This document shows positions 8,911 to 28,792 of a stretch of DNA of 41,046 bases, in pieces (position 1 is the stretch's first letter; each line of letters starts with the position of its first letter). Origin of the DNA: Lysobacterales bacterium (GTDB taxonomy: Bacteria; Pseudomonadota; Gammaproteobacteria; Xanthomonadales; S139-57); the NCBI GenBank assembly GCA_015485125.1, contig WFUE01000062.1, forward strand, positions 1 to 41,046. The letters are read 5' to 3'. Below the pieces are notes generated by a model. That model saw only the letters and a list, made by a program, of their open reading frames with translations, had not been told where the DNA came from and did not search any database. The position numbers and the translations under genes were made by a program.

Positions 8911-9732
8911 CTACTGCAGCAGGTTCAAGGCCAATTGTGGCTGAGTATTGGCCTGTGCCAGGGTGGAAACCCCGGCCTGCTGCAGAATTTGCGCCCGTGT
9001 CATACGGGCTGATTCCGCCGCAAAATCGGCATCCATAATGCGGCTGAACGCTGCGGCCTGTGCCTCCTGCATGGCACGCAGATTGGAAATGACATTGCTC
9101 AGACGGCTCTCGCCGGCGCCAATACCTGCCAGTTCGGTATTGATGGAATCCAGCGCGGTATCCAGCGCGGCCAGTTCGGTATTGGCCGCCGCGATCGTAT
9201 TGATATTGCCCAGTGCGGTACCGGTACCGGAACGGTCTGTCAGCGTCACGGAAACGGTATCACCCACATTGGCCCCGACCTGGTAGACGAATGTGCCCGC
9301 ATCCGCGCCCACGATATTCAGGCCATTGAAGGTGGCCTGGGCGGCGATACGATCCAGTTCGTTTTTCAGCTGCTGGTATTCGGTATCCATCAGCCCGCGG
9401 TCTCCACCCGGGCCATCGGAGTAGGTGCCGTTGGCCGATTGCACCGCCAGCTCACGCATGCGCTGCATGACCTGGTTCATGGAGCTGAGGGCATTGTCGG
9501 CGACCTGCAACAGGGAAATCCCGTCGTTGGCATTGCGCTCGGCCACGGTCAGGCCGCGTTCCTGTGCCTGCATCCGCGTAGCCACGGCCAGACCTGCGGC
9601 ATCATCCTTGGCCATGTTGATGCGCAGGCCGGATGACAGGCGTTGCATAGCCCGGGTCAAGTCGCCCTGGGTACGCGAAAGATTTTTCTGCGCGTTGATG
9701 GAAAACAGGTTGGTATTGACAGTAACTGGCAT
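8911..9732 (-). CDS. fliC: Flagellin
   Basis: A 273-residue flagellin, the filament subunit, exported by the flagellar type III system. The conserved N-terminal D0/D1 helices (VNTNLFSINAQKNLSRT, LSSGLRINMAKDDAAGLA, ANDGISLLQVADNALSSM) and C-terminal helices (SRIMDADFAAESARMTRAQIL, LAQANTQPQLALNLLQ) are all present. The central hypervariable part is only about 80 residues, so the surface D2/D3 domains are nearly absent and the filament should be thin and smooth. The ATG at 9732 has GGAGG eight bases upstream; a TTG five codons earlier overlaps that Shine-Dalgarno sequence and is rejected. A near-consensus sigma-28 promoter lies upstream at 9793-9819, as expected for a late flagellar gene. Confidence 0.96.
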   Translation of the reverse strand: MPVTVNTNLFSINAQKNLSRTQGDLTRAMQRLSSGLRINMAKDDAAGLAVATRMQAQERGLTVAERNANDGISLLQVADNALSSMNQVMQRMRELAVQSANGTYSDGPGGDRGLMDTEYQQLKNELDRIAAQATFNGLNIVGADAGTFVYQVGANVGDTVSVTLTDRSGTGTALGNINTIAAANTELAALDTALDSINTELAGIGAGESRLSNVISNLRAMQEAQAAAFSRIMDADFAAESARMTRAQILQQAGVSTLAQANTQPQLALNLLQ

Positions 9733-9792
9733 GAGCTTGGCCTCCAAGTGAGCACTTTATCTTCGAAAGTCATTTCGCTTTCGTTGCCCCCT

Positions 9793-9833: not shown

Positions 9834-11216
9834 TCAGAACTGTATCCTCCCACCAATGGTATACACCGTCTCGCTGACCCGTTCATAGCCCAGTAGATGG
9901 GACAGACGCAGAAACACCTGCTTGTCTCCGGCCAAGACCCAGTTGGCACCGGCCTGGATGGTGGCGTAGTTTCTGTCAGGGGCCTCCGTGACCACCTGAT
10001 GATCCAAACCCAGTGGATCCACCACAAAACTCATGCGCACATGCTCGGCATCAAGGGCAAATTCGTGGTAGAGATTGACTTGCGCGAAGGGCACCAGCAC
10101 ACCACGGGACAGGCTGAAGGCACGATCCACGCCCATCTGCCATTGCAGTACATTGGATTCGATACTGCGATTTTCCACCCGCACCAGATAGGGAATGGGG
10201 CGATTGCTACTGGCCGGGCGTTCACTGTAGCCATCAATGCGGGTTACGCTGTATTCCCATTGCAGGCTGGTGTTCAGCCGCCACGCACCCAATTGCCAGT
10301 CTCGGACCAGCCCCAGGTGAATCAGCTCACTGCGCCCATCCGGGCTGGCTTGCGCCCGGTCATCGAAATCCGCAAAGCTGCCATCCGCACGCAAGACATG
10401 AAATTCAATCAGCCGAGACTGGAAATAACGATCCAGAGCTGCGGATATCAGTGCATCCAGCCTCCAGTTGCCTCCCAGTTGCCAACTGCCATACAGGCTC
10501 ATGCCGGACTGGGTCAAATCCAGAGCGCCGGCTGCCCGCCCAAAGGTATCCTGATCTATATCACTGATCATGGCTCCCCGTTCATCTCGATAGGTCAGCG
10601 CCATGCCCAACAACAGGTTGTCGCTGATCTGCTGGTCCACACCCAGAATGAAAGCCAGCCGGTCATAGGTAAAACCGGTTTCCAGCGCCGTGCTGTCCCT
10701 GCGGGTATCCGCATAACTCACCGTCATGAACAATCCCTTGTTATTGCTGAAAGCATTTACCCCTTCTTCCAGCCCGGCCCATCGGTTGTAGCGCATGGCC
10801 AGGGAGCCTTCACCGGGTTGGTAGGCCAGCCCACCGGATGCGCGTTGCGCCATGCGCGCAAAAAGCGGCATGGACAAGGCGCGGATACCGTAATTGAGAT
10901 CACGGCCAACGGCCGTGGTTTCTTCCGCCATCATGCCGCGTACCAAATGGCGAATGGCATCATCGTTGTTGCCGGAAAACAGTGCTTCACGAAGAATACG
11001 GCACCCCAGCCCCATCTCCGTCTGGTCGATGCCGCTGTTGGTGCAAATGCGGGCCAGTTGTGCGGCCGCACGGACCAGCAGACGGTCACCTGTGCGCTCT
11101 GCCAGCGCGTTTAGAGCCTGCTGAACCGAGTTGAAATCAGAAGGATTTTCCTGGGCACGAACCTGGTACGCATGCAAGCTCGTGATCAACAGGACGACTC
11201 CAATCAAATGACGCAT
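9834..11216 (-). CDS. Outer-membrane beta-barrel protein, autotransporter-domain-like
   Basis: A 460-residue exported protein. The N-terminus MRHLIGVVLLITSLHAYQVRAQE is a signal peptide with probable cleavage after VRA. Residues about 25-150 form a small, partly helical periplasmic or surface region with two cysteines. From about residue 165 to the end, alternating amphipathic strands (for example LFMTVSYADTRRD, NLLLGMALTYRDERG, GMSLYGSWQLG) continue to a terminal phenylalanine (GGRIQF), typical of BAM-inserted barrels and the autotransporter beta-domain. The very short N-terminal part makes it a minimal autotransporter or a plain OMP; function is unknown. I chose ATG 11216 (AAGGGGG just upstream, proper signal peptide) over an upstream in-frame extension of 83 residues lacking signal features. 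It is divergent from the receiver-like gene. Confidence 0.8.
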   Translation of the reverse strand: MRHLIGVVLLITSLHAYQVRAQENPSDFNSVQQALNALAERTGDRLLVRAAAQLARICTNSGIDQTEMGLGCRILREALFSGNNDDAIRHLVRGMMAEETTAVGRDLNYGIRALSMPLFARMAQRASGGLAYQPGEGSLAMRYNRWAGLEEGVNAFSNNKGLFMTVSYADTRRDSTALETGFTYDRLAFILGVDQQISDNLLLGMALTYRDERGAMISDIDQDTFGRAAGALDLTQSGMSLYGSWQLGGNWRLDALISAALDRYFQSRLIEFHVLRADGSFADFDDRAQASPDGRSELIHLGLVRDWQLGAWRLNTSLQWEYSVTRIDGYSERPASSNRPIPYLVRVENRSIESNVLQWQMGVDRAFSLSRGVLVPFAQVNLYHEFALDAEHVRMSFVVDPLGLDHQVVTEAPDRNYATIQAGANWVLAGDKQVFLRLSHLLGYERVSETVYTIGGRIQF

Positions 11217-11270
11217 ACTGCCCCCTTGTGCAATATCAATGTAGTGATTGACCCTGTTAGAATAGCGCAA

Positions 11271-11675
11271 ATGAAAAATCAAGACCTTTGTGTGTTGCAA
11301 ATCGCCGAAATGGGCGGTGACGCACAGATTGCGCTCACCCTGAAGCAGAGCACACACAGTTGGCATACCTGCAACCGCATGCGAGAAGCATTGAAGATGC
11401 TGCGCAGGCATAAGCCGCGCATCGTGATTGCCGATTATCACTACCAACGTAACTTCTCGATGCAACGCAGCAATCTGGATGCGTTGTTTTCAACCATCGC
11501 TCAGTTGCCAGACAAGCCCATCCTGATCCTGCTCAGTCTTGCTGAAGACCGGCCTCATCTGGAACAGGCCTGTGCCGGTCCGCTGGGTCAGTTGCAACCG
11601 GATATCGTGGAAGTTCCCCTGTCGCCGGAAGGCCTGCGCAGAGTGAAAAAGAGGTTGCAGACATGCAGACACTGA
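11271..11675 (+). CDS. Small degenerate receiver-like protein of unknown function
   Basis: A 134-residue soluble protein. Alternating hydrophobic strands and helices resemble a CheY-like receiver fold: VLQIAEMGG (beta1), KPRIVIADYHY (beta3, with an aspartate at residue 55 where the phospho-acceptor would be), KPILILLS (beta4) and DIVEVPLSPEGLRRVKKRL (beta5 and last helix). The acidic pair after beta1 and the lysine before the beta5 proline (here VPL) are missing, so normal phosphorylation is unlikely. No output domain is attached. The start at 11271 follows a weak ribosome site; an upstream in-frame start at 11172 would run through the divergent promoter region. The end overlaps the ClC gene by 13 bases, suggesting coupled expression. 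The receiver assignment is inference from pattern only. Confidence 0.6.
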   Translation: MKNQDLCVLQIAEMGGDAQIALTLKQSTHSWHTCNRMREALKMLRRHKPRIVIADYHYQRNFSMQRSNLDALFSTIAQLPDKPILILLSLAEDRPHLEQACAGPLGQLQPDIVEVPLSPEGLRRVKKRLQTCRH

Positions 11676-17217: not shown

Positions 17218-18132
17218 ATGAACACCCGTGTCCATATGGATCTGGCGGCGGTGGTGGTCTGCAACCAGCACAACCAGCCGCACATCCTGCTGGACAATCG
17301 CGCCCACCATCCGGCACTACCCACGGGCCCGTTGGACCCGGAGGCACACAAGACTCTGGAACGTGCCATCCGCGAACATGTGTTTCTCGAGCACGGCCTG
17401 GAACTGGGCTATGTGGAACAGTTATACACCTTTGCCGACCATGGCCGCGTGCTGAACTGCCCCCGGCACAGTCGCTGCGTCAGCACTGCCTATCTGGCAT
17501 TGACCCGCATGCGTCAAAGTACTCCCAAGGGTGCGGAATGGTTGCCCTGGTATCAATTTCTACCCTGGGAGGACTGGCGCCATGGTCGCCCGGCCATCCT
17601 CAGCGAGCAGCTACAACCCGCACTGGAAGCCTGGGCGGAAACAGAAAAACCCGACCCGGCCCTGCAACAGCGCCTGCAACTGGCCTTTACCGCCGAGGAC
17701 AGCCAATGGGATCCGGAACGGGTGCTCGAACGATATGAACTGCTCTACCAGGCACGCCTGATTCCGGAATACTATCTCGACCACCGTAAGCCTGTGCCCG
17801 CCCTGCCCGCCAGCGGCCGTGCCCTGGCCCATGATCACCGACGCATGCTGGCCACCGCGCTGGGCCGCCTGCGTGGCAAATTGAAATACCGACCGGTCGT
17901 CTTTGAATTGCTGGAAGAAACCTTCACCCTGCTGCAACTGCAACAACTGGTCGAATCCCTGGCCGGGCATCCGCTGCACAAGCAGAATTTTCGTCGCCTG
18001 GTGGAACAGACCCAACTGGTGGAAGGCACGGGCCGTTTCCGCTCCACCGGCCGTGGCCGCCCCGCCGAACTGTTCCGTTTTCGCTCGGCCGTGCTACTGG
18101 AGCGGCCCGCACCGGGGCTGCGCATTCGCTGA
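17218..18132 (+). CDS. NrtR-like regulator: degenerate NUDIX domain plus C-terminal winged helix
   Basis: A 304-residue soluble protein. The N-terminal half (about 1-140) has a NUDIX fold with a degenerate box around REHVFLEHGLELGYVEQLYTF (52-72), lacking the full REUXEEXGU glutamates. The C-terminal KYRPVVFELLEETFTLLQLQQLVE...HKQNFRRLVEQTQLVE...GRPAELFRF (about 220-295) is the winged-helix domain typical of NrtR. NrtR proteins repress NAD-salvage or sugar genes and sense ADP-ribose or related nucleotides in the catalytically dead NUDIX pocket. The ATG is 3 bp after the mltD stop codon, so it is probably cotranscribed with gloB-mltD. No NAD-salvage gene is adjacent; the NAD kinase at 22842 is on the other strand 5 kb away. 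The target is unknown. Confidence 0.78.
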   Translation: MNTRVHMDLAAVVVCNQHNQPHILLDNRAHHPALPTGPLDPEAHKTLERAIREHVFLEHGLELGYVEQLYTFADHGRVLNCPRHSRCVSTAYLALTRMRQSTPKGAEWLPWYQFLPWEDWRHGRPAILSEQLQPALEAWAETEKPDPALQQRLQLAFTAEDSQWDPERVLERYELLYQARLIPEYYLDHRKPVPALPASGRALAHDHRRMLATALGRLRGKLKYRPVVFELLEETFTLLQLQQLVESLAGHPLHKQNFRRLVEQTQLVEGTGRFRSTGRGRPAELFRFRSAVLLERPAPGLRIR

Positions 18133-18227
18133 ACCCAGGCCCGCATAAGAGAAAATGGGTTGATTTTGCCACCATTTACTGCGAATCTTGCCTTTAATGA
18201 TCATGACACACGGATGAGGGAGGAACC

Positions 18228-20462
18228 GTGCCTGCCCACACATCCAGCCACCCACGCGATTTTTGGGCTATCGCGCTGCTGCTTGCCCTGCCACTGATTA
18301 TTCTGGGTACGACCAACCTGCCCTTTCAGGCAAGGCAAGCGCATGGGTATGTAGGCATCGGCTTCCAGGAGGTGCCCGACCAATCAGGGCTGATCATCGA
18401 CTATATAGCACCAGGTGGGCCGGCAGATCGTGCAGGCCTGTCAACCGGCATGCGTCTACTGGCTTACGAAGGGCAACCGGTCGCCAGCCAGAAGGCACTG
18501 GATCAACTCTGGTTCAAATCGCCACCACAACAACTGAATCTTACCCTGCAGGATACCGGGGGCCGTCAGCGAGTCTATGCCATCGCACCAGGCCGCAATC
18601 TGGACTTGAGCCAGCTGGTCGTCAACACCCTGGGGGCTTTCTATTTTTTCGGCATGATGGTGGTACTGTTCCAACAACGGCAAAAAACCGAGGCCCGGCT
18701 GCTTATCCTGCTGCTGCTGATTCTGAGCATGGATTTTCTCCTGCCCTTTTCGCAAGTACCCAGCCAAACCGTCAACGCCTGGCTGTGGCGCATCAATCTG
18801 TGGAACCTTTCGGCGGTCATGGTGCTCAAGTTGCACTTTGTATTGATCTTTCCCGGCCCGGTACGCTTCTATCAGCAACATCGGCGACTGGCCCTGGCCT
18901 TGCTCTATGGCGGCATGCTCCCTGGCCTGCTTTTTCTGACCACACTGGTGGAAGACACACTGGACCCCCAATCCACCCGTTTCTTCTTTACCCTGCAGGT
19001 TGTAGTCATGGTATCCATCTGGGCGTTGCTGGGCTGGCGCTACTTCAGAACACTCAACCCGGAATGGAAAAAGCAACTGGGCATTGTCTGGGCCTTTGAC
19101 ACCCCGTTCGCCTTTACCCAGCTGCTCTGGCATATCCACGTCTACTACTGGTTCATGGATTGGCTGGAATGGCTGGACTGGACGGAACAGCTGGTACTGG
19201 CGCTCTGGCCCACGGGCATCTTCATCGCCATCGTCCGTCACAATTTTTTGCAGATTCGCCACAATCTGCGCCCCGAGCCGGTACGAATCTTTATTCAGTT
19301 CGCGCTGTTACTGGTGTTATTGCTGGTGGCGCAGGAAGGCTATCACCAGTTTGCCCGCTTCATGCCCGGCAATTTGGCCATGCTGGCCATTTCCATTCCC
19401 GCACTGAGCTTTTCCACCCAGATTGTCCCGGCCAGCCGCCGGCTGCATGGCTGGCTGGAACACGGCCTGTTGCAGGCCCATATTCCCCTGCACCACGCAT
19501 TCCGTGAGCATCTGGCGAAGAAGGAAAGGTTCGGAGACGACCTGCAACAAGACCTGCGCGATGCCTTGCAATACCTGAGACAAGTCTTGCATCTGCCCTG
19601 GGCAGGCATCTATTGCCCCGCCACGGAAGAAAACCCGGCTTTTCAGGTACAGGCCGGTCTATTGCCGGTGGAAACCGCCAGTGATCTGCCAGCACTATGG
19701 CAACAAACCGAGGTGTTGATGAGCAGACATGCAGATCATCTACAGGAAATTTTTCCACTCCAGTGCAGTCCCGACAATAATCAGGGCATTCTCATGCTGG
19801 GCAACAGCCCAGCACACGCGCGTCAACTGACCGAAGAAGACCACCACGACCTTACCTTGATTGCTCAGGATCTGGCCAGCAACATCGAACGAGCCCGGCT
19901 CAGCCAACTGGCTTCCACCGATGTGCTGACCGGCAGCCTGCGAAGGGAAGCCGCGCTGGATGCACTGCGCGTACTGATCGGACAAAGCCGCAGGCACCAG
20001 ACGCCAATGAGCGTCTGCATGGTGGATCTGGACCATTTCAAGCAGGTCAATGACCAGTGGGGCCACCCCGCTGGCGACCGGGTCTTGCAGAACACCGCCA
20101 GTACTCTGCGGCAGGCTGTACGACAATCCGATGTCATCGGTCGCTATGGTGGGGAAGAGTTTATGCTGATTCTGCCGGAATGTGACGAAAAAGGGCTGCA
20201 ACAACTGATGGACAAGATTTTCAGCCAGGTTCGTCAGCGGCATACCCACGACAGCCGCCAGGCACCGGAAGTCGCTCTGCTCAGCGCCGGTTGCCTGGTA
20301 CTGCATCCAGCCATGCTGGTAGGCGATACAGAAGTACTGGTTGAACGCATGCTGCAAGAGGCCGACCAGTTGCTGTACCAGGCCAAGGCGCAGGGTCGCA
20401 ATCGTTATCTCATGGGCTCGCTGAGCCACGACCCTTCCAATGAGGCTTCTCCCACCGGATAG
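18228..20462 (+). CDS. Membrane diguanylate cyclase with PDZ, multi-TM, GAF-like and GGEEF domains (copy 1)
   Basis: A 744-residue protein that should make c-di-GMP. In order: a TM helix (about 11-30); a PDZ-like domain (about 38-118) with the APGGPADRAGL turn; six or seven further TM helices between about 130 and 400; a linker; a GAF-like domain (about 435-555); and a GGDEF domain (about 565-730). The active site is GGEEF (641-645), and the product-inhibition I-site RQSD (632-635) stands five residues before it, so catalysis and feedback are both expected. The GTG start at 18228 has AGGGAGGAA just upstream. The architecture is repeated by the gene at 26552-28792 (746 residues), an obvious paralogue. 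The PDZ between TM1 and TM2 should face the periplasm and could bind an exported peptide or C-terminus (inference). Confidence 0.9.
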   Translation: MPAHTSSHPRDFWAIALLLALPLIILGTTNLPFQARQAHGYVGIGFQEVPDQSGLIIDYIAPGGPADRAGLSTGMRLLAYEGQPVASQKALDQLWFKSPPQQLNLTLQDTGGRQRVYAIAPGRNLDLSQLVVNTLGAFYFFGMMVVLFQQRQKTEARLLILLLLILSMDFLLPFSQVPSQTVNAWLWRINLWNLSAVMVLKLHFVLIFPGPVRFYQQHRRLALALLYGGMLPGLLFLTTLVEDTLDPQSTRFFFTLQVVVMVSIWALLGWRYFRTLNPEWKKQLGIVWAFDTPFAFTQLLWHIHVYYWFMDWLEWLDWTEQLVLALWPTGIFIAIVRHNFLQIRHNLRPEPVRIFIQFALLLVLLLVAQEGYHQFARFMPGNLAMLAISIPALSFSTQIVPASRRLHGWLEHGLLQAHIPLHHAFREHLAKKERFGDDLQQDLRDALQYLRQVLHLPWAGIYCPATEENPAFQVQAGLLPVETASDLPALWQQTEVLMSRHADHLQEIFPLQCSPDNNQGILMLGNSPAHARQLTEEDHHDLTLIAQDLASNIERARLSQLASTDVLTGSLRREAALDALRVLIGQSRRHQTPMSVCMVDLDHFKQVNDQWGHPAGDRVLQNTASTLRQAVRQSDVIGRYGGEEFMLILPECDEKGLQQLMDKIFSQVRQRHTHDSRQAPEVALLSAGCLVLHPAMLVGDTEVLVERMLQEADQLLYQAKAQGRNRYLMGSLSHDPSNEASPTG

Positions 20463-20469
20463 TGCCGGT

Positions 20470-21360
20470 TCACGGGTTGGCCACCCCATGGGGGACATGC
20501 CCGGTGGGCACATGGCTGCTGGCGCTCTCGCAGTGGATTTTCTGATCGTCAAAAAAAATGTCGGCACCAAAGGCAGCCAAGACGGGCCCCTTTTCGCGCC
20601 CGCCGAGGAACAGGGATTCATCGATGCGCACGCCCCACTCCCGCAAGGTGAGAATGACCCGCTTGTGCGCCGGCGCCGAGCGGGCGGTTACCAATGCCGT
20701 GCGAATGGGGTTGTTGTCGGCGGGATAGGCCTGCTGAATGGCATGCAATGCCTGTAAAACCCGAAAAAACGGCCCCGGCTGCATGGGAGATTCCGCATCC
20801 TGGGCTTCATGGTCGAGAAAGGCCTCCAGCCCCTGTTCCTTGTAGATGCGTTCCGAGGCATCGGAAAACAGCACGGCATCGCCATCGAAGGCAATGCGCA
20901 CCTGGCCATCAGCTTCCCGGTCCATTCGCCCCGGCAGAATGGTGGCCGCCGCATAGCCGGCTTCAAGCACATGGCGCACATCCTCGGCATGGGCGCTGAG
21001 AAAGAGATCCACCCCAAAGGCGGGGATGTAGCGCTCCGGGCTTTCGCCATTGGTAAAGGCCGCCCGGCAGATGGGCAGTTGCATCCGCTCGATGGTATTG
21101 AAAATCCGCAGGCCGGTATCAGCGGAATTACGCGAGACCAGAATCACCTCTACCCGCTGGTGCTCGCCATCGTTCAATGCCAGCAACTTCTTGACCAGCG
21201 GATAGGCCATGCCGGGTTGCAAGGGTTCGTTCTCGTGGGCAATCTGCCATTGCTGGTAAGCCTCAATGCCCTGGGTCTCGAACACCCGATGACTCTCGTC
21301 CAGGTCAAACAGGGCGCGAGAGGAAATGGCAATGGTCAGCGGCAGGACTTCAGTTTTCAT
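20470..21360 (-). CDS. 5'-nucleotidase (cytosolic NT5C1-like family)
   Basis: A 296-residue HAD-related 5'-nucleotidase that hydrolyses nucleoside monophosphates, matching the bacterial family related to vertebrate cytosolic 5'-nucleotidase I. It has SSRALFDLDESHRVFE near the N-terminus (D19, D21) and the diagnostic RIAFDGDAVLFSDASERIYKEQG in the middle. No signal peptide is present, so it is cytosolic. I chose ATG 21360 by the family N-terminus (MKTEVLPLTIAISSRALF); an ATG two codons earlier (21366) is possible. The start overlaps the end of the subtilase gene by 11 bases, so it relies on translational coupling. GGDEF copy 1 converges with it, 7 bp between stop codons. The substrate (AMP, IMP or another) cannot be told. 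Confidence 0.85.
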   Translation of the reverse strand: MKTEVLPLTIAISSRALFDLDESHRVFETQGIEAYQQWQIAHENEPLQPGMAYPLVKKLLALNDGEHQRVEVILVSRNSADTGLRIFNTIERMQLPICRAAFTNGESPERYIPAFGVDLFLSAHAEDVRHVLEAGYAAATILPGRMDREADGQVRIAFDGDAVLFSDASERIYKEQGLEAFLDHEAQDAESPMQPGPFFRVLQALHAIQQAYPADNNPIRTALVTARSAPAHKRVILTLREWGVRIDESLFLGGREKGPVLAAFGADIFFDDQKIHCESASSHVPTGHVPHGVANP

Positions 21361-22789
21361 AACCATCCGTGAACACGGGTTCCAGTACATGCTGATAGGC
21401 ATTCCAGCTGTCGATGATACCCCATCCATAGACAGCATTGGGTCGCTGGCTACCGGCCACACCGCCACAATTCTGGCTGGAAAAGGCCGGAGTGGCATAG
21501 TATCGAATCACTCGCCGCAGTGCCGCCGGCTGGCCCAAAAGGGCCGGGTTGGCCTGCAACAGCAGGGCTGCCAGCCCGGCCACATGTGGCGTGGCCATGC
21601 TGGTGCCACTGGAAAGGCCGGTATTGCCGTTGAGCAGGGACGAACGCACATTCACCCCCGGCGCGGCCACATTGGGTTTCAGGCGGTTGGAACCGTCCAC
21701 GGTCACCACCCCCCGGCTGCTGAAACCGGCCACCTGATTGCTGCCGTCCACTGCCGCCACGGTAAAGCTGCTGTCGTAAATGGCCGGCGGATGACTGATG
21801 GTATTGCAGGTACTGCCGGAATTACCGGCGGCGGATACCACCAGTATGCCCGCCGACTGGACACTGTCCACCGTGGCCTGCAGGGCATTCCAGGCACAGC
21901 CCTCGCTGGGTGGGCAAGCCCAGGAATTGCTGATGATGGCCGGCGCCAGATCCGGGCGCGGGTCCGTGCCATCAATACGGGTGGGGGCCAGAAACCACTG
22001 GAAGCATTCGATATAACTGCTGGCCGTGCCAGCCCCCTGATTCATATTGCGACAACCGATCCATTTTGCGTCAGGAGCCACGCCGGTGCGGGTACCGCTG
22101 AGCGGATCATCTCCGGCCACGGTACCCGTTACATGGGTACCATGACCATGGTCATCGCAAGGCGCTGGTGAATCCGCACTGCAACTGCCATTGGCGACAT
22201 GGATGGCATCGTGCCAGGCGTGATCGTGGCTCACCGTACCCGACGTGCTGTCCCAGCCCCGGTACTGGTTTTTCAGCAAATCATGGTCCCATTGCATGCC
22301 AGTGTCCTGAATGCCCACGGTTACACCACTGCCGGTAATGCCCGCCAGCCAGAGCTTATCGGCGCCGATCTGGCTGAGATTGGCTTGCACTGTACCCTTG
22401 GGCAGCACCCGCCGGTCATCCCGTGGTTTCGCCCAGCGCATGGCATGGGGGCGATCCCGCTCCACGGCAGCCACCTGAGGCATTTGCCGCAGACGATGGG
22501 CCTGGTGGGCGGTGAGTGTCGCCTGTATGACCGGTGCCAGCCAGAAACTGCGATAGCGCACGCCCCATTGCTGCAACTGTTCTTCCACCGGGGCTTGCAA
22601 CCGGGCCACCTGCCGCTGGTGATAGCGCAAGTCACCCTGGCTTTTCATCGGCCGATTCGGCCAGTAGCCATGCAGGCTGATCAGCCAGTTTTCCGTAACA
22701 TAAGGCTGGTAGGCCACGGCTTGCTTGCTCGCTTGGACTGGTGTGCACACACCCAGCAACAGGCCAAGCACAAAGGCAACCGCCCGCAT
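21350..22789 (-). CDS. Secreted subtilisin-like serine protease (S8) with C-terminal FTDGYEN tail
   Basis: A 479-residue exported protease. A signal peptide (about 1-20, cleavage after VQA) is followed by a propeptide-like region (about 25-115) and the catalytic domain. The catalytic triad is D162 (QDTGMQWDH), H216 (HGHGTHVTGT) and S397 (SGTSMATPHVAG), with the oxyanion asparagine N323 (AAGNSG). Cysteines at about 203, 211, 246, 262, 292, 298, 328 and 441 suggest disulphides and extracellular action. There is no autotransporter barrel. The protein ends in VFTDGYEN, like the tail of the protein at 1-300. It lies between the NAD kinase and 5'-nucleotidase genes on the same strand, an odd place for a secreted protease. 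Confidence 0.92.
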   Translation of the reverse strand: MRAVAFVLGLLLGVCTPVQASKQAVAYQPYVTENWLISLHGYWPNRPMKSQGDLRYHQRQVARLQAPVEEQLQQWGVRYRSFWLAPVIQATLTAHQAHRLRQMPQVAAVERDRPHAMRWAKPRDDRRVLPKGTVQANLSQIGADKLWLAGITGSGVTVGIQDTGMQWDHDLLKNQYRGWDSTSGTVSHDHAWHDAIHVANGSCSADSPAPCDDHGHGTHVTGTVAGDDPLSGTRTGVAPDAKWIGCRNMNQGAGTASSYIECFQWFLAPTRIDGTDPRPDLAPAIISNSWACPPSEGCAWNALQATVDSVQSAGILVVSAAGNSGSTCNTISHPPAIYDSSFTVAAVDGSNQVAGFSSRGVVTVDGSNRLKPNVAAPGVNVRSSLLNGNTGLSSGTSMATPHVAGLAALLLQANPALLGQPAALRRVIRYYATPAFSSQNCGGVAGSQRPNAVYGWGIIDSWNAYQHVLEPVFTDGYEN

Positions 22790-22841
22790 AAATCAGACGT
22801 GCGTTCCGGCTTCCTGCCTGGCTTGAGGGCTGCCTTTCTCC

Positions 22842-23603
22842 TCAGTCGAAAACAAACTGTTCATTGAGTATGCGCTCTTCCAGATTGTGTTCCGGATCGA
22901 ACAGCACCGTCGGCTGGTGTTCGCGATCCTCTTCCACATGCACATGGCGTACATTGCGGATTTCAGTAGCGTCCGCCGTGGCCGATACCGGGCGTTTTTC
23001 CGGGTCCAGCACCTCGAAATGGATGCGTGCCTGCCCGGGCAGTATCGCGCCACGCCAGCGGCGCGGGCGGAAGGGGCTGATGGGCGTCAGTGCCAGCACA
23101 TCACTGCCTAACGGCAGAATGGGGCCATGCGCCGAATAGTTGTAGGCGGTACTTCCCGCGGATGTAGCCACCAGCACGCCGTCACAGATCAGCTCTTCCA
23201 CCTTCACCGTATCATTGATGGAGATACGAATGTGTGCGGCCTGCCCCGTTTCCCGTAACAAGGAAACTTCGTTGAAGGCCTGGGCGCTAGCCTGATCGCC
23301 CTCCACGGTTTCCACCCGCATACGCAGCATGCTCAGCGGCGTGGCTTCGGCCGCGTGGATTCGTTCCGGCAGACCGCCTTCATGATAGCGGTTGAGCAGA
23401 AAGCCCAGACTGCCCCGCTTCATGCCGTAGAAGGGCTTGTCCAGGTGCATCCATTGATGCAGCATTTCCAGCATCCAGCCATCTCCACCCAGTGGCACCA
23501 GCACATCGGCAGCAGCAGGCTTGTGCTGCCCGTAGCGTTCAGCCAGTGCCCGCAGGGATGCCTGTGCCTTGGGGGCGTCGGATGCAAGAAATGCCAGTTT
23601 CAT
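22842..23603 (-). CDS. nadK: NAD kinase, short type
   Basis: A 253-residue ATP-NAD kinase that makes NADP in the cytosol. The GGDG motif is at residues 39-42 (PLGGDGWMLEMLH), followed by KRGSLGFLLN, FNEVSLLRE and the NAD-binding DGVLVATSAGSTAYNYSAHGPILPLGS. The C-terminal LFDPEHNLEERILNEQF is also typical. E. coli NadK is about 290 residues; this shorter type with 'FLASDA' at the start is usual in alphaproteobacteria and is also found in Xanthomonadales, so it could be lineage-typical or a second copy. It sits 12 bp after nfuA on the same strand and 52 bp before the subtilase gene. Confidence 0.93.
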   Translation of the reverse strand: MKLAFLASDAPKAQASLRALAERYGQHKPAAADVLVPLGGDGWMLEMLHQWMHLDKPFYGMKRGSLGFLLNRYHEGGLPERIHAAEATPLSMLRMRVETVEGDQASAQAFNEVSLLRETGQAAHIRISINDTVKVEELICDGVLVATSAGSTAYNYSAHGPILPLGSDVLALTPISPFRPRRWRGAILPGQARIHFEVLDPEKRPVSATADATEIRNVRHVHVEEDREHQPTVLFDPEHNLEERILNEQFVFD

Positions 23604-23615
23604 CTCAGGTTCGCA

Positions 23616-24194
23616 TCAGGCATAGGGGTTGGTGCCCTGTGCGTGATCGGTGACATCTTCCACCGCCTTGATCTCGGGAAAACGCTCCAGCAGGGTCTTC
23701 TCCACGCCGTTTTTCAAGGTCATGCTGGACATGCCACAGCCCTGACAACCACCCCCAAAGCGGACCTTGACCGTACCATCGTCAGTGATGCTATCCAGGC
23801 TGATAAAGCCACCATGGGCGGCGACCATGGGGGTGATTTCACTGTCGATCACATATTGCACCCGCTCCTTGAGCGGTGCGTCCTCGGCCGGTTTCTTGCC
23901 GCGGATATTGGGGGCCTTGATGACCAGCTGGCCACCCGTGGGCTTTTCCTCGTAGTCGAACGAGGCTTCTTCCAGAAAGGGCGCGCTGTTGCGATCGATA
24001 TAGAGAGTGAAGGCACCGCAATCCTGAGCCAGATCGGTGGCGCTGTTCTCGCCGGGTTCGCAGAAGGAAAGCTGGCAGTCCGCGGAAGGTGTGCCCGCCT
24101 GCTTGACTTCCAGCCGCAGGCCCATGCCCTCCACGCCCTGCTGCTGGATCAATTTCTGAAAATAGTCTTTGGCACTGTCGCTGATTGCAATCAT
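23616..24194 (-). CDS. nfuA: Fe-S biogenesis protein NfuA
   Basis: A 192-residue carrier that holds a [4Fe-4S] cluster and passes it to apoproteins, especially under oxidative or iron stress. The N-terminal part (about 1-95) is a degenerate A-type (IscA/HesB-like) domain whose cluster cysteines are not in the A-type arrangement. The C-terminal Nfu domain (about 105-185) carries the cluster motif GGGCQGCGMSSMTLKNGVE with C150 and C153. Both halves match E. coli NfuA (191 residues), including the terminal NPYA. It lies 19 bp after the esterase gene and 12 bp before nadK. Confidence 0.95.
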   Translation of the reverse strand: MIAISDSAKDYFQKLIQQQGVEGMGLRLEVKQAGTPSADCQLSFCEPGENSATDLAQDCGAFTLYIDRNSAPFLEEASFDYEEKPTGGQLVIKAPNIRGKKPAEDAPLKERVQYVIDSEITPMVAAHGGFISLDSITDDGTVKVRFGGGCQGCGMSSMTLKNGVEKTLLERFPEIKAVEDVTDHAQGTNPYA

Positions 24195-24213
24195 GGTTCT
24201 CTCTTGTCTGTGC

Positions 24214-25239
24214 TTATGTATTCAATGCATGGACCAAGTATGGCAAGGAATGGTCCAGCCTGTAATCAATCCCGGAATGGGTACCATCAAACTCTTCGTA
24301 GATATGCGCGATTCCCATGGTTTCCAGTTTCCGGTGCAGTTTTCGCGAGCCATACTGGATATTGTACTGGTCATGACGACCCACATCGATCCACAGCCCC
24401 TTGAGTTGGGACAGGTTCTGCCCGTAACGGTTCAGCAATTCCAGCGGGTCGTGGGCCAGCCAGGCCTGCCAGCGTTCGGGAATCAGCTCCAGCGTATGCA
24501 GGTCGAAAGGCAGGCGCAGATTATCCAGCCGGGCCCCGTCCGGGTCATAGCTGGCGGCCAGGCACAATACCATGAGCGTGTGGATGTCCGAACCCGAAGG
24601 CTGTGAACGGCTCCAGAAATCCTCGAGAAAGGCCCGCCAATCCCCATTGTAGCGTTCCAGTGTCTGGGCCACCTTGGGAAAATCCGGCCGGTAGACCAGT
24701 TCAAAATCACAGTCACCGGCATGCACGGCGGCCGCGCCCCAGTATTCCGGCGACAGCATGGCCAGCCGCAAGGCACCATAACCACCGGAAGACTTGCCAA
24801 AGACAGCCCGGTTTTCCCGGCTGCCACCGATGGGCAGGCGAGATTCCACAAAGGGGATCAACTCCTGCTGCAGGTAATCGGCCCAGCTGCCCAGTGCCGG
24901 GCTGTTGACATACTGGTTGCCACCCAGGCGGGTGAAACAATCCGGCATCACCACTGCCGCTGGCGGCAGGCTGCCCTGAGCAAACAGGCGATCCAGGCGA
25001 TCCGGCAGATTTTCGCCAAAATTCTTCCAGCCTACATGAGCGGCACCACTGCTGGTATAGGCGGCCAGATCCCACAGCGCCGGCAAGGGTGGTTTCTGCT
25101 GCTCCCATCCGGGTGGCAGCCAGACCCAGACAGCCCGCTCCACAGGATCGTTCCACGGGTTGCCTCGCAGACATTCGGATTGATGCAAGAACATCTGCAG
25201 ACGGTTTTCAACAAGGTAGCGTTTCATTCCGGGGTTCAT
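24214..25239 (-). CDS. Putative alpha/beta-hydrolase esterase (esterase-D-like)
   Basis: A 341-residue serine hydrolase without signal peptide or membrane segment. The nucleophile elbow is GKSSGG (S150), the acid is probably the aspartate in DVGRHDQYN and the histidine is in DGTHSGIDYR, a complete triad in the order and spacing of the 'putative esterase' family. DLAAYTSSG near residue 60 may form the oxyanion side. It is longer than E. coli FghA (about 280), so S-formylglutathione hydrolysis is not assured; the substrate is unknown. I kept the first ATG (25239); ATG 25227 (MKRYLVEN), four codons later, is an alternative. It is the first gene of the run to the 5'-nucleotidase and diverges from phhA across 31 bp. 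Confidence 0.82.
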   Translation of the reverse strand: MNPGMKRYLVENRLQMFLHQSECLRGNPWNDPVERAVWVWLPPGWEQQKPPLPALWDLAAYTSSGAAHVGWKNFGENLPDRLDRLFAQGSLPPAAVVMPDCFTRLGGNQYVNSPALGSWADYLQQELIPFVESRLPIGGSRENRAVFGKSSGGYGALRLAMLSPEYWGAAAVHAGDCDFELVYRPDFPKVAQTLERYNGDWRAFLEDFWSRSQPSGSDIHTLMVLCLAASYDPDGARLDNLRLPFDLHTLELIPERWQAWLAHDPLELLNRYGQNLSQLKGLWIDVGRHDQYNIQYGSRKLHRKLETMGIAHIYEEFDGTHSGIDYRLDHSLPYLVHALNT

Positions 25240-25270
25240 ACGGTCTAGAATATCCTTTTTGGGAGGGTGA

Positions 25271-26062
25271 ATGATGAAACAGACGCGCTATCAGGCCAAG
25301 ACGCCCGACAAGAACGGCATCATTCCCTACACGGACGAGGAGAATGAAACCTGGAGCATACTCTACCATCGCCAGAGAAAGCTGTTGCCGGGCCGCGCCT
25401 GCGAAGACTATATCGCGGGGCTGGACCGGTTGGAGCTGAGCACCGACCGCATCCCGCAGCCGGGTGAAGTCTCCGAGCGGTTGCTGGATTTTACCGGCTG
25501 GCAGGTAGAGCCGGTACCCGCGCTGATCAATTTCACCGATTTCTTCCAGCTGCTGTCGGAAAAGAAATTTCCCGCCGCCTCCTTCATTCGCCGGCGGGAA
25601 GATCTAGACTACCTGCAGGAACCGGATATCTTCCACGAAATATTCGGCCACTGTCCGCTGCTGACCTACCCGGGTTTTGCCGACTTTACCCAAAACTACG
25701 GCAAGTACGGGCTGGCCGCCAGCAAGAAAGACCGCCCCATGCTGGCCCGTCTCTACTGGTTTACCGTGGAATTCGGCCTGCTGTGGGAAAACGGGCAACT
25801 GCGCAGCTATGGTGCCGGCATCAACTCCTCACCGGGCGAGCTGCAATACGCACTGGACAGCGATGTACCGGAAAGACTGCCGTTTGACCCGCTGGACGCC
25901 CTGCGCACCCCCTACCGCATCGACATCTACCAACCGGTCTATTTCGTGCTGGATCACCCGAAGGATCTCTACCGGTTGGCCGAAGTCAACCTGCAGGAAC
26001 TGATCGACCAAGCCCGCAAGCTGGGCGAATTCCCACCCAAATTCGACAAAGAGGCCAGTTGA
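25271..26062 (+). CDS. phhA: Phenylalanine 4-monooxygenase
   Basis: A 263-residue cytosolic non-haem iron enzyme that turns phenylalanine into tyrosine with O2 and tetrahydropterin. The iron ligands are H122 and H127 in DIFHEIFGHCP and E167 in FTVEFGLLWE. The pterin and substrate region includes PVPALINFTDFFQLL and SYGAGINSSPGELQYAL. Length is right for the bacterial single-domain form, with no regulatory ACT domain. GGGAGG lies just upstream; ATG 25271 and 25274 are adjacent and equivalent. Its stop overlaps the phhB start (TGATG), so the pair is coupled. The divergent esterase gene begins 31 bp upstream. Confidence 0.95.
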   Translation: MMKQTRYQAKTPDKNGIIPYTDEENETWSILYHRQRKLLPGRACEDYIAGLDRLELSTDRIPQPGEVSERLLDFTGWQVEPVPALINFTDFFQLLSEKKFPAASFIRRREDLDYLQEPDIFHEIFGHCPLLTYPGFADFTQNYGKYGLAASKKDRPMLARLYWFTVEFGLLWENGQLRSYGAGINSSPGELQYALDSDVPERLPFDPLDALRTPYRIDIYQPVYFVLDHPKDLYRLAEVNLQELIDQARKLGEFPPKFDKEAS

Positions 26063-26394
26063 TGAGCGAACTCAAAGAAAAGAAGTGCCAGGTCTGCGAA
26101 GGCGGTACCCCCGCATTGAGCACACAGGAAGCCCAAAAGCTGTTGGAACAGGTCCCTGGCTGGCACATTCGTGAAGATGGCAAGGCGCTGCTGCGGGAAT
26201 TTCAGTTCAAGGGTTTCTATCGCACCATGGCCTTCGTCAACGCACTGGCGTGGATCGCCAATCAGGAAAACCATCACCCCGACTTTTCCGTAGGCTACAA
26301 CTACTGCCATGTACTGTTCACCACCCATGCCGCCGACGGCCTGACCGAAAATGATTTCATCTGCGCGGCCAAGGTCAATGCACTCCTGGAGTAG
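26062..26394 (+). CDS. phhB: Pterin-4a-carbinolamine dehydratase
   Basis: A 110-residue enzyme that dehydrates the 4a-hydroxytetrahydropterin made by PhhA, allowing cofactor recycling. The catalytic histidines are in NQENHHPDFSVGYNYCHVLF, and the opening PGWHIREDGKALLREFQFKGFYRTMAFVN is typical. The N-terminus is about 15 residues longer than the core and carries CQVCEGG, a CxxC pair seen in other bacterial members. The ATG at 26062 shares its first base with the phhA stop codon. Confidence 0.94.
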   Translation: MSELKEKKCQVCEGGTPALSTQEAQKLLEQVPGWHIREDGKALLREFQFKGFYRTMAFVNALAWIANQENHHPDFSVGYNYCHVLFTTHAADGLTENDFICAAKVNALLE

Positions 26395-26453
26395 CCGAAG
26401 CCAAAGACCCAGATACGACATGGATTGCTCGTTCATTGCCGAATACCATGCCA

Positions 26454-26483
26454 TTGCATGACGGCCTGCACTCCTGCTATTGT
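26454..26483 (+). promoter_or_regulatory. Candidate extended -10 promoter of GGDEF copy 2
   Basis: In the 157-bp gap after phhB, TGC-TATTGT (26475-26483) fits an extended -10 box, with a weak -35 TTGCAT (26454-26459) 18 bases before the hexamer. I see no sigma-28 match here. This suggests that the second GGDEF gene has its own promoter separate from phhA-phhB. Confidence 0.33.
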
Positions 26484-26551
26484 GGGTCCAATCGTAGTCG
26501 TGAACTCCTGTCTGGCTCAAGGTGGTTCATGACGCAGGAATCCTTCAGAAC

Positions 26552-28792
26552 ATGCATTGGCCCACCTCTCTGAAATCACCGGTATTTTTTCTGTTGTTGC
26601 TGGCCCTGCTTCCAGCGAGCATAGTGCTGCCGGGCCTGCTGAATGAGGCCGACAATTCCATTGGCATCACCATCCGTCAGGAAAATCCGGAAGACCCGGT
26701 AGAGATCATCCGGGTCTTTCAAAACACCCCTGCCGAAAATGCCGGCTTGCGCAAGGGCATGAAGCTCCTGAGTGCACTGGGTCAGCCCATTCATACGCTG
26801 GATGATGTAGGTCGCATCTGGGAGCAACGAAAAAAGGGCCAATTACTGTCGGTGGAAGTGCAAATGGAGGATGAACCACCGATTCAACTGCACATCAAGC
26901 CTGGCATCACCCCGGATTTCACACCGCTGTTGCTGAATGTACTCGGCGGTTTTTTCTTTCTGGGGCTAATACACCTGCTGTTTCCACAGCGCAAGGAACC
27001 CCAGGCACGCGTACTGCTGCTTATGCTGGTGCTGCTGTCCACCGACTTCATGCTGCCCTACGGCTATGCAGGCCAAATAGAGTCCTGGCTGTGGCGCTTC
27101 AACCTGTTCAATCTGATTGCCGTCAATCTGCTGGCCCTGCATTTTTTCATGCTGTTCCCGCAACCCATGCCCATAGTTCGCCAACATGAAAAAAGCATAC
27201 TCCTGACGCTCTACGGGCTGCTATTGCCGCTGGGCTTTACCATGGCGGCACAGGTTGAAGATCCAACCCGGAACGCTTCCAGTTTCCCCGTATATACCCT
27301 TGATACGATACTGGCATTGTGTAGCTGGTTGTTACTGGGTTACAGAACCCTGCAACAACAGCAGGATCCTGAGCGCACCCTGACCCGCTGGGTCTGGTTC
27401 TCCTTTACCCCTTTCGCCTTGTCCAAGGCCATCTGGTATCTACAGACCTACAGCGGCATGAACCTGGGCCTGCCCGTCGACCGTCTTGTGCAAACTGCCA
27501 CCATAATTGCACCCACCGGTTTTTATCTCGCCACATTGCGACTGGATTATCTTCAGGCCGGCAAGCAGGTACGCGGACGGGATTTGACCACCTACCTGCA
27601 GCTCATTCTGCTGATGTTGACCCTGCTGTTGGCACAACAAGTACACGGGTGGATACTGGCCCATGAGCGCGCTCTGGCAACACTGTCCGCCGTAATCACG
27701 GCCCTGCTGGGTGGCGCGCTATCCACACCGTTGAGCGAGCGATTGTCCAACTGGGTCATGCGCGGCATGTTTACGCGTTCCGGCCACATGCTTCAGGCCA
27801 TCGACCATTTCTTCCGGCAACAACAGGAAACCCGTGATGAAAGCCAGCTGATGGCGGATGTAGCGCAATTCATCCATCAAAAAATGCACATACCCTGGGT
27901 GGCTATACAGTTCTGTGCCGGACTGAAGGAAGAAGACGAACTGATCGCCCTGTCTCAGCCCGAACCTTTTGGCACCAGGGACTTTCCCCGTTTCTTGCAA
28001 GGCATGGACCGCTTTCTCAGCCAACAGGGTGAAAGCGCACAAATGGGCAAGCAACGTGACGAATGGATGAAAGAATTTGGCGTTGTCCACATCTTTCCCT
28101 TTTGCTCGGCCACCCATGCACGCGGGCACCTGGTCATCGGCCAGTGCACGGACCAAAGACGTACCCTGAGCGCACATGAACTCAAGGATCTGCAGGATAT
28201 CTGCCAGCGGCTGGCCCTCGTTCTGGAGCGGATTCAACTGGAAAAGACCGCCCAGGTGGATGAACTTACCGGCGCCTTGCGCCGTGAAGCCGGCATGATA
28301 CAGCTGCAACTGGTGCTGGAAGCCAGCATGCAAAAACAACAGCCGATGACCGTGGCCCTGCTGGATCTGGATCATTTCAAGGCGGTCAATGACCAGCACG
28401 GACATCCTGTCGGAGACCAGGTGCTGCGCGAAACCGCCAAATTGATTCGCAAGCAGCTACGCAGCAGCGATCTGCTTTGTCGTTATGGAGGCGAAGAATT
28501 TCTGGTAATTCTTCCAGCAACGGGAGAAAAAGGTGCGGCATTTGCGCTGGAAAAACTACTGGACAAGATTCGTCAGCACTATATCCGTTTCGGCAAGGGA
28601 GAAAAAACACTCAATATCACGCTCAGTGCCGGTTGTGCGGTATTTCAGCCAGACCTTTGGAAACCCGAAGAGATCCAAAACCTGGCTTCACGACTGATCC
28701 AGGCTGCTGACCAACGTCTGTACGAGGCCAAGCACAAGGGCCGAGACCGTTGTTTTTGCCAGGTGCTGCACCCGCGCCCGGTTGATCAGTAG
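26552..28792 (+). CDS. Membrane diguanylate cyclase with PDZ, multi-TM, GAF-like and GGEEF domains (copy 2)
   Basis: A 746-residue paralogue of the protein at 18228-20462, similar along its whole length. Parts: TM1 (about 9-29), PDZ-like domain (about 36-116, [15 protein letters not shown]), a block of TM helices (about 123-390), a GAF-like domain (about 430-555) and GGDEF (about 568-735). The active site is GGEEF (646-650) with an intact I-site RSSD (637-640). Both copies share the TM-block motif W-x-W-R-(I/F)-N-L. I chose ATG 26552 because the resulting length and N-terminus match copy 1; an in-frame GTG ten codons earlier is possible. Its end overlaps the end of the chemoreceptor gene by 7 bases, tail to tail. 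The signal bound by PDZ or GAF is unknown. Confidence 0.88.

Follow-up and report, generated by a model that had tools for sequence, protein, structure and literature searches.

A ComP-like input region with a periplasmic PDZ domain in two paralogous putative diguanylate cyclases of a Lysobacterales bacterium

ComP-like kinases, among them the quorum-sensing kinase ComP of Bacillus, contain an input region in which a single transmembrane (TM) helix is followed by a PDZ domain and nine further TM helices (PMC3353171, PMC9620489). A census of microbial PDZ proteins describes ComP as a combination of PDZ, HisKA_3 and HATPase_c and lists no cyclase (PMC6411480), and it has been proposed that the PDZ domain of ComP binds ComX (PMC9620489), although that binding is itself unproven. 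The main text of a census of the sensory inputs in cyclic di-GMP (c-di-GMP) signalling contains no mention of PDZ. Here we describe two genes on contig WFUE01000062.1 of a Lysobacterales bacterium (the window, which refers to the entire analysed stretch of 41,046 nucleotides), whose products, termed cyclases A and B, combine such an input with a GGEEF-containing output domain. On the basis of their sequences, we consider it probable that both proteins are one-component TM receptors, in which a ComP-like input would control an active and product-inhibited diguanylate cyclase.

A family of PDZ cyclases is not described in the searched literature, a statement that is provisional since supplementary tables, subscription journals and architecture databases were not searchable. 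The preliminary description of this locus knew of no well-described family of PDZ-gated diguanylate cyclases, which in this provisional sense stands for the complete proteins but not for their front end, which was already known from ComP-like kinases. It is thus the pairing with a cyclase output that is provisionally new, and not the front end in itself. The term 'pDZ' found in a paper on Azospirillum is the name of a plasmid and not a PDZ domain.

Domain organization of cyclases A and B

Both open reading frames (ORFs) of the region 18228-28792 were confirmed as previously described, and the encoded proteins of 744 and 746 residues are paralogues that share 34% identity over their full length. 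They display a common order of domains, where TM1, a periplasmic PDZ domain and nine additional TM helices precede a small GAF-like domain and the GGEEF output (Table 1). The gene of cyclase A starts with GTG at 18228 and has a good ribosome site, GAGGGAGGA, in front, and that of cyclase B starts with ATG at 26552, with a longer frame from GTG 26522 also being present.

The PDZ domain of A exceeds the Pfam cut-off of PF00595 (23.4 vs 23.2 bits, residues 37-106), and that of B on its own is found just below the cut-off of PDZ_2 (25.7 vs 27 bits). A profile of five N-terminal regions matched the DegP PDZ at E = 4e-9 in a search of PDB sequences, where HtrA/DegP PDZ domains constitute the strongest matches, and a PDZ profile from a second genus, termed g9, gives 36-48 bits against A and B (B 45.5; shuffles ≤7.2). 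The PDZ domains of the tested relatives from g9 and Acidobacteriota are all over the Pfam cut-off (30-46 bits). In the family alignment, the carboxylate-binding loop, which was assigned by analogy, keeps the pattern x-hydrophobic-G-hydrophobic (YVGI, SIGI or RIGV), and both fold and loop are retained in all 16 aligned sequences. The assignment of a PDZ domain between TM1 and TM2 made in the preliminary description thus holds on the basis of Pfam for A and on the basis of profiles for both proteins. Its predicted periplasmic location was borne out by the topology: in A and B the domain resides in a loop of 94-98 residues between both helices, and the abundance of lysine and arginine of 0.18-0.19 per residue in predicted inner compared to 0.05-0.06 in outer loops would, according to the positive-inside rule, place this loop outside. 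The further TM block was also recovered, with nine additional helices predicted in either protein.

Models obtained with AlphaFold2 (AF2) are of modest quality, with a predicted local distance difference test score (pLDDT) of 58 for A and 63 for B, in the latter of which the PDZ domain reaches about 80, with strands and helices following one another as is typical of PDZ. In these models, the cytoplasmic segment preceding the GGDEF domain contains a helix, two strands, two helices, two strands and a long helix. This order, and the GAF domains of relatives that pass the Pfam cut-off, speak for the GAF-like domain of the preliminary description, but neither A nor B contains a Pfam GAF match at E≤1, and homology of this part on its own to the relatives is not significant, so that the label 'GAF-like' appears fair but not proven. 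The GGDEF domain scores 131 bits in A and 130 bits in B and it keeps GGEEF, DxLTG and the metal and substrate residues, with an RxxD inhibitory site (I-site) located five residues ahead of GGEEF (RQSD in A, RSSD in B), in line with the earlier reading of both motifs. It is the only output domain found, and the Pfam scan of A and B revealed neither a trypsin-like protease domain nor HisKA_3 or HATPase_c. The matches listed in a Foldseek search with the model of B were all GGDEF structures.

Relationship of the input region to other receptors

Domain order and sequence of A and B recur in 16 full-length sequences, five from the window genus and eleven from g9, which belongs to another family of the same order. 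These score 488-814 bits, with the next best match at 49 bits covering PDZ only, and this recurrence suggests an architecture beyond chance. In a profile search of 399 genomes at the order level, full-length relatives were found solely in the window genus and in the eleven genomes of g9, which each carry one copy with about 25% identity to A and B. GGEEF is present in all eleven g9 cyclases, the main signature motifs are intact in the relatives too, and L220 (PDZ_2 43.9, GAF 47.3, GGDEF 135) and likewise L222 exceed the Pfam cut-offs for all three domains. Samples that comprised 203 genomes from the class and 200 from the phylum yielded no full-length relative except for the window genome, with each genome in these searches being scored on a few candidates only. 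With an N-terminal profile (A1), the matches listed for the class and phylum samples outside the window genome were all PDZ-only, and searches of plasmids returned nothing useful. In Acidobacteriota, three cyclases among the proteins examined (L278, L280, L281) show the order PDZ-TM-GAF-GGDEF and exceed the Pfam cut-offs for PDZ, GAF and GGDEF. Judged by sequence, the architecture is thus one that extends beyond the window genus.

The layout of the input of A and B matches the one published for ComP (PMC3353171). The N-terminal region of a PDZ-TM-GAF-PAS-HisKA kinase has matches in 78 out of 99 acidobacterial genomes, and the proteins that were read whole combine one and the same front end with HisKA kinases, SpoIIE-type PP2C phosphatases (L282-L284) or GGDEF domains. 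A first search of Bacillota contained no full-length kinase among the matches listed, and a broader profile found one in a genome of the Bacilli, the class of a Paenibacillus locus. This protein (L287) displays the order PDZ-TM-GAF-HisKA_3-HATPase_c and thus the domain set of ComP. Its PDZ does not reach the Pfam cut-off, and its alignment with the family profile A5 spans the region from PDZ through GAF (prob 98.7). In hhalign comparisons, the TM block of A and B matches that of the acidobacterial kinase with prob 96.5 (E 8e-10), and the TM block of g9 matches that of the kinase with prob 98.5 (E 4e-15). A profile of the TM and GAF regions of g9 yields 26-40 bits against A and B (A 39.6, B 30.3; 1000 local shuffles ≤16.0), its TM part alone yields 36 bits for A and 14 for B (shuffles ≤10), and the kinase profile yields 62-80 bits against the TM and GAF regions of g9 (shuffles ≤17), with ORFs of the loci used and shuffles serving as controls. 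What the sequences show directly are thus the domain order, the topology signals, the intact catalytic and I-site motifs and the homology between this module and that of equally arranged kinases and phosphatases. The presence of the same PDZ-TM front end on kinases, phosphatases and cyclases suggests that A and B contain a ComP-like receptor module attached to a cyclase.

Several observations weigh against this assignment. The TM block of A and B is not above local shuffles when compared to the first kinase profile (14.2 vs 13.6 bits) and the case for homology thus runs either through g9, whose bridging cyclases were brought to light by this very test, or through profile-profile comparisons, where one-to-one E-values are lenient. 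The sequences of the window genus alone align weakly with the kinase from Bacilli (prob 31), and the likeness to ComP relates to its published layout and domain set rather than to a comparison with the sequence of Bacillus ComP itself. The AF2 models, based on five sequences, are thin (pLDDT 58-63) and describe the TM block poorly. Finally, a nearby gene for a ligand was not seen. The scanned genes of the window contain no Pfam families of the comX, comQ or comA type, with the restriction that a short comX-like ORF could escape.

A phylogenetic tree built from the input module recovers A and B as sisters and unites the window genus in a single group (100/100). Most cyclase inputs form a cluster of their own, which is separated from the kinase and phosphatase inputs at moderate support (83/76). 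In the GGDEF tree, the cyclases of g9 and Acidobacteriota group (89), with the window genus placed elsewhere at weak support. A single cyclase fusion common to g9 and Acidobacteriota appears likely from these trees, and the cyclases of the window genus may originate from a separate fusion event.

Proposed mechanism and locus context

In the mechanism that we propose for A and B, the input would comprise TM1, the periplasmic PDZ domain, the nine further TM helices and the cytoplasmic GAF-like domain. A periplasmic ligand, most likely a peptide or the C-terminus of a protein, as for other PDZ domains, would bind to the PDZ/TM module and alter the packing of its helices. The GAF-like domain, together with the long signalling helix, would relay this change to a GGEEF dimer, whose state would set the rate of c-di-GMP synthesis, with the I-site conferring product inhibition. 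Catalytic activity, the dimeric mechanism, the nature of the ligand and the direction of the response are features that we infer from the sequences.

The region of cyclase A shows signs of exchange. The other analysed genome of the window genus, a Lysobacterales metagenome-assembled genome (G001), carries A (82%), a second type termed A2 (54%) and B (81%). Two of its contigs (L111:116-3463 and L023:3-3331) represent the same locus as window 17424-20729, with the upstream and downstream genes being 95.5% and 94% identical on the DNA level and the cyclases between them sharing 53% protein identity. Where the upstream gene reaches its stop, the identity falls steeply, and it recovers at the end of the 5'-nucleotidase. 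The difference between flanks of about 95% and a cyclase of 53% identity points to gene replacement at one locus, for which two co-binned strains with different alleles offer the simplest reading, with a duplication behind the A/A2 pair being possible.

What is sensed by this module can be viewed in different ways. The TM block itself might be the true sensor, of a lipid, a hydrophobic signal or the state of the membrane, with PDZ serving only dimer formation or the anchoring of a partner. It is the best-kept part between A and A2 (66% compared to 47% for PDZ) and holds many of the invariant input residues, but this view, which we regard as somewhat unlikely, is weakened by the retention of the PDZ fold and its loop in 16 of 16 sequences and the fact that PDZ accompanies the module across three types of output. 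Binding of C-termini is established PDZ chemistry, and the domain could in this way recognize a neighbouring envelope protein, such as a lytic transglycosylase, a subtilase or the C-terminus of an outer membrane protein, and report on the state of the envelope, as DegS does in case of outer membrane proteins. A gene for an MltD-like lytic transglycosylase located two genes upstream of A, the S8 subtilase encoded between A and B and the HtrA/DegP domains as best matches in the PDB are all consistent with such a role. We still consider it unlikely, as A and B lack a protease domain and the context is not kept at two g9 loci, which have a propeller-Y_Y_Y-GGDEF gene next to the cyclase.

The apparent replacement of cyclase A within conserved flanks recalls diversifying pheromone receptors. 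Along with the homology to ComP-like kinases and the ComX binding proposed for their PDZ (PMC9620489), it would be compatible with A and B being quorum-sensing cyclases that respond to a peptide secreted by their own or by another species, in the way that ComP responds to ComX. With a comX- or comQ-like partner not recognized among the window genes examined and the precedent of ComP unproven, we find this reading hard to favour. Finally, a lack of catalytic activity in A and B, or a role as receptors of c-di-GMP, appears very improbable, given that both proteins preserve the signature motifs and that the relatives preserve the main ones. Our preference remains with a ComP-like receptor that controls an active cyclase. 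The wider notion of a ComP-like PDZ-10TM input of the quorum-sensing type that is plugged into different outputs across phyla, in these bacteria converts an extracellular peptide signal directly into c-di-GMP and changes its specificity by swapping receptor alleles at a fixed locus is a doubtful one, which we offer tentatively.

The genes between both cyclases encode, according to Pfam, a 5'-nucleotidase, an S8 subtilase, a NAD kinase, NfuA, an esterase, a phenylalanine hydroxylase and a pterin dehydratase. The content of the 6-kb 'metabolic block' of the preliminary description is thus mixed, and no functional meaning of the flanking arrangement is visible. The suggested link to motility genes was not upheld, as it rests on proximity, with a flagellin gene (8911-9747) located 8-9 kb upstream of A and a gene for a methyl-accepting chemotaxis protein adjoining B. 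The flagellin gene is itself adjoined by one for an autotransporter beta-domain protein (9834-11465). Directly upstream of A, a gene encodes an NrtR-like winged-helix regulator (17221-18132), which is retained in the sister genome. The subtilase (21350-22789) ends with EPVFTDGYEN; the idea of its DGYEN tail as a shared C-terminal tag for PDZ binding was dropped, as only this gene carries it at the loci compared. At the g9 loci L220:16-2649 and L221:59-2482, the propeller (Reg_prop)-Y_Y_Y-GGDEF gene is found directly upstream of the PDZ cyclase, resulting in two adjacent cyclases.

Table 1. Coordinates of the features of cyclases A and B in the window
Feature	Position	Strand	Evidence
Shine-Dalgarno-like GAGGGAGGA ahead of the GTG start of A	18216..18224	+	sequence
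Cyclase A, 744 aa, PDZ-10TM-GAF-like-GGEEF	18228..20462	+	ORF, Pfam, AF2
A TM1 (residues 11-30)	18258..18317	+	hydropathy, AF2
A periplasmic PDZ (residues 37-120), carboxylate-loop-like YVGI	18336..18587	+	PF00595 above cut-off; DegP PDZ profile match; AF2
A nine further TM helices (residues 129-397)	18612..19418	+	hydropathy, AF2; homology to second-genus cyclases and kinases
A degenerate GAF-like domain and signalling helix (residues 439-552)	19542..19883	+	AF2 secondary structure; relatives above GAF cut-off
A GGDEF domain (residues 562-726)	19911..20405	+	PF00990 131 bits
A RxxD inhibitory site, RQSD	20121..20132	+	sequence
A GGEEF signature	20148..20162	+	sequence
Cyclase B, 746 aa, paralogue of A (34% identity)	26552..28792	+	ORF, Pfam, AF2
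B TM1 (residues 10-30)	26579..26641	+	hydropathy, AF2
B periplasmic PDZ (residues 36-115), loop SIGI	26657..26896	+	PDZ_2 just under cut-off; AF2; second-genus profile
B nine further TM helices (residues 125-393)	26924..27730	+	hydropathy, AF2
B GAF-like domain and signalling helix (residues 430-557)	27839..28222	+	AF2
B GGDEF domain (residues 567-733)	28250..28750	+	PF00990 129.8 bits
B RxxD inhibitory site, RSSD	28460..28471	+	sequence
B GGEEF signature	28487..28501	+	sequence

Comparison with known signalling systems

Diguanylate cyclases contain many membrane inputs for which a ligand is not known. In case of A and B, the homology of the input to kinases with a proposed peptide ligand turns the class of the ligand into a testable guess. 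The comparison also shows a single receptor module that feeds into phosphorelay, PP2C and c-di-GMP outputs. Its pairings with kinases and cyclases constitute a natural swap for the study of signalling by the module, and the latter pairing suggests a direct route from a peptide-like signal on the outside to c-di-GMP.

Compared to known systems, A and B share their periplasmic PDZ with DegS/HtrA and other PDZ proteases, which contain the closest PDZ sequences in the PDB, but they are multi-TM proteins without a protease domain and with a cyclase as output. With the MASE and 7TMR-DISM membrane cyclases they share a multi-TM input and GGDEF, yet they show no Pfam match to these inputs at E≤1 and contain a PDZ domain. 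Bacillus ComP (PDZ, HisKA_3 and HATPase_c) has a kinase output in place of GGEEF, and the host of A and B is Gram-negative, with comQXA-like neighbours not recognized near either gene. The acidobacterial PDZ-TM-GAF-PAS-HisKA kinases (L189) and PDZ-TM-SpoIIE phosphatases (L282-L284) contain a homologous input module, but differ in their output domain and, for most of them, in a fuller GAF. Both domain order and GGDEF output are shared with the PDZ-TM-GAF-GGDEF proteins of the second genus (L224-L234) and of Acidobacteriota (L278, L280, L281), with those of the second genus being distinguished from A and B by a recognizable Pfam GAF and a sequence identity of about 25%.

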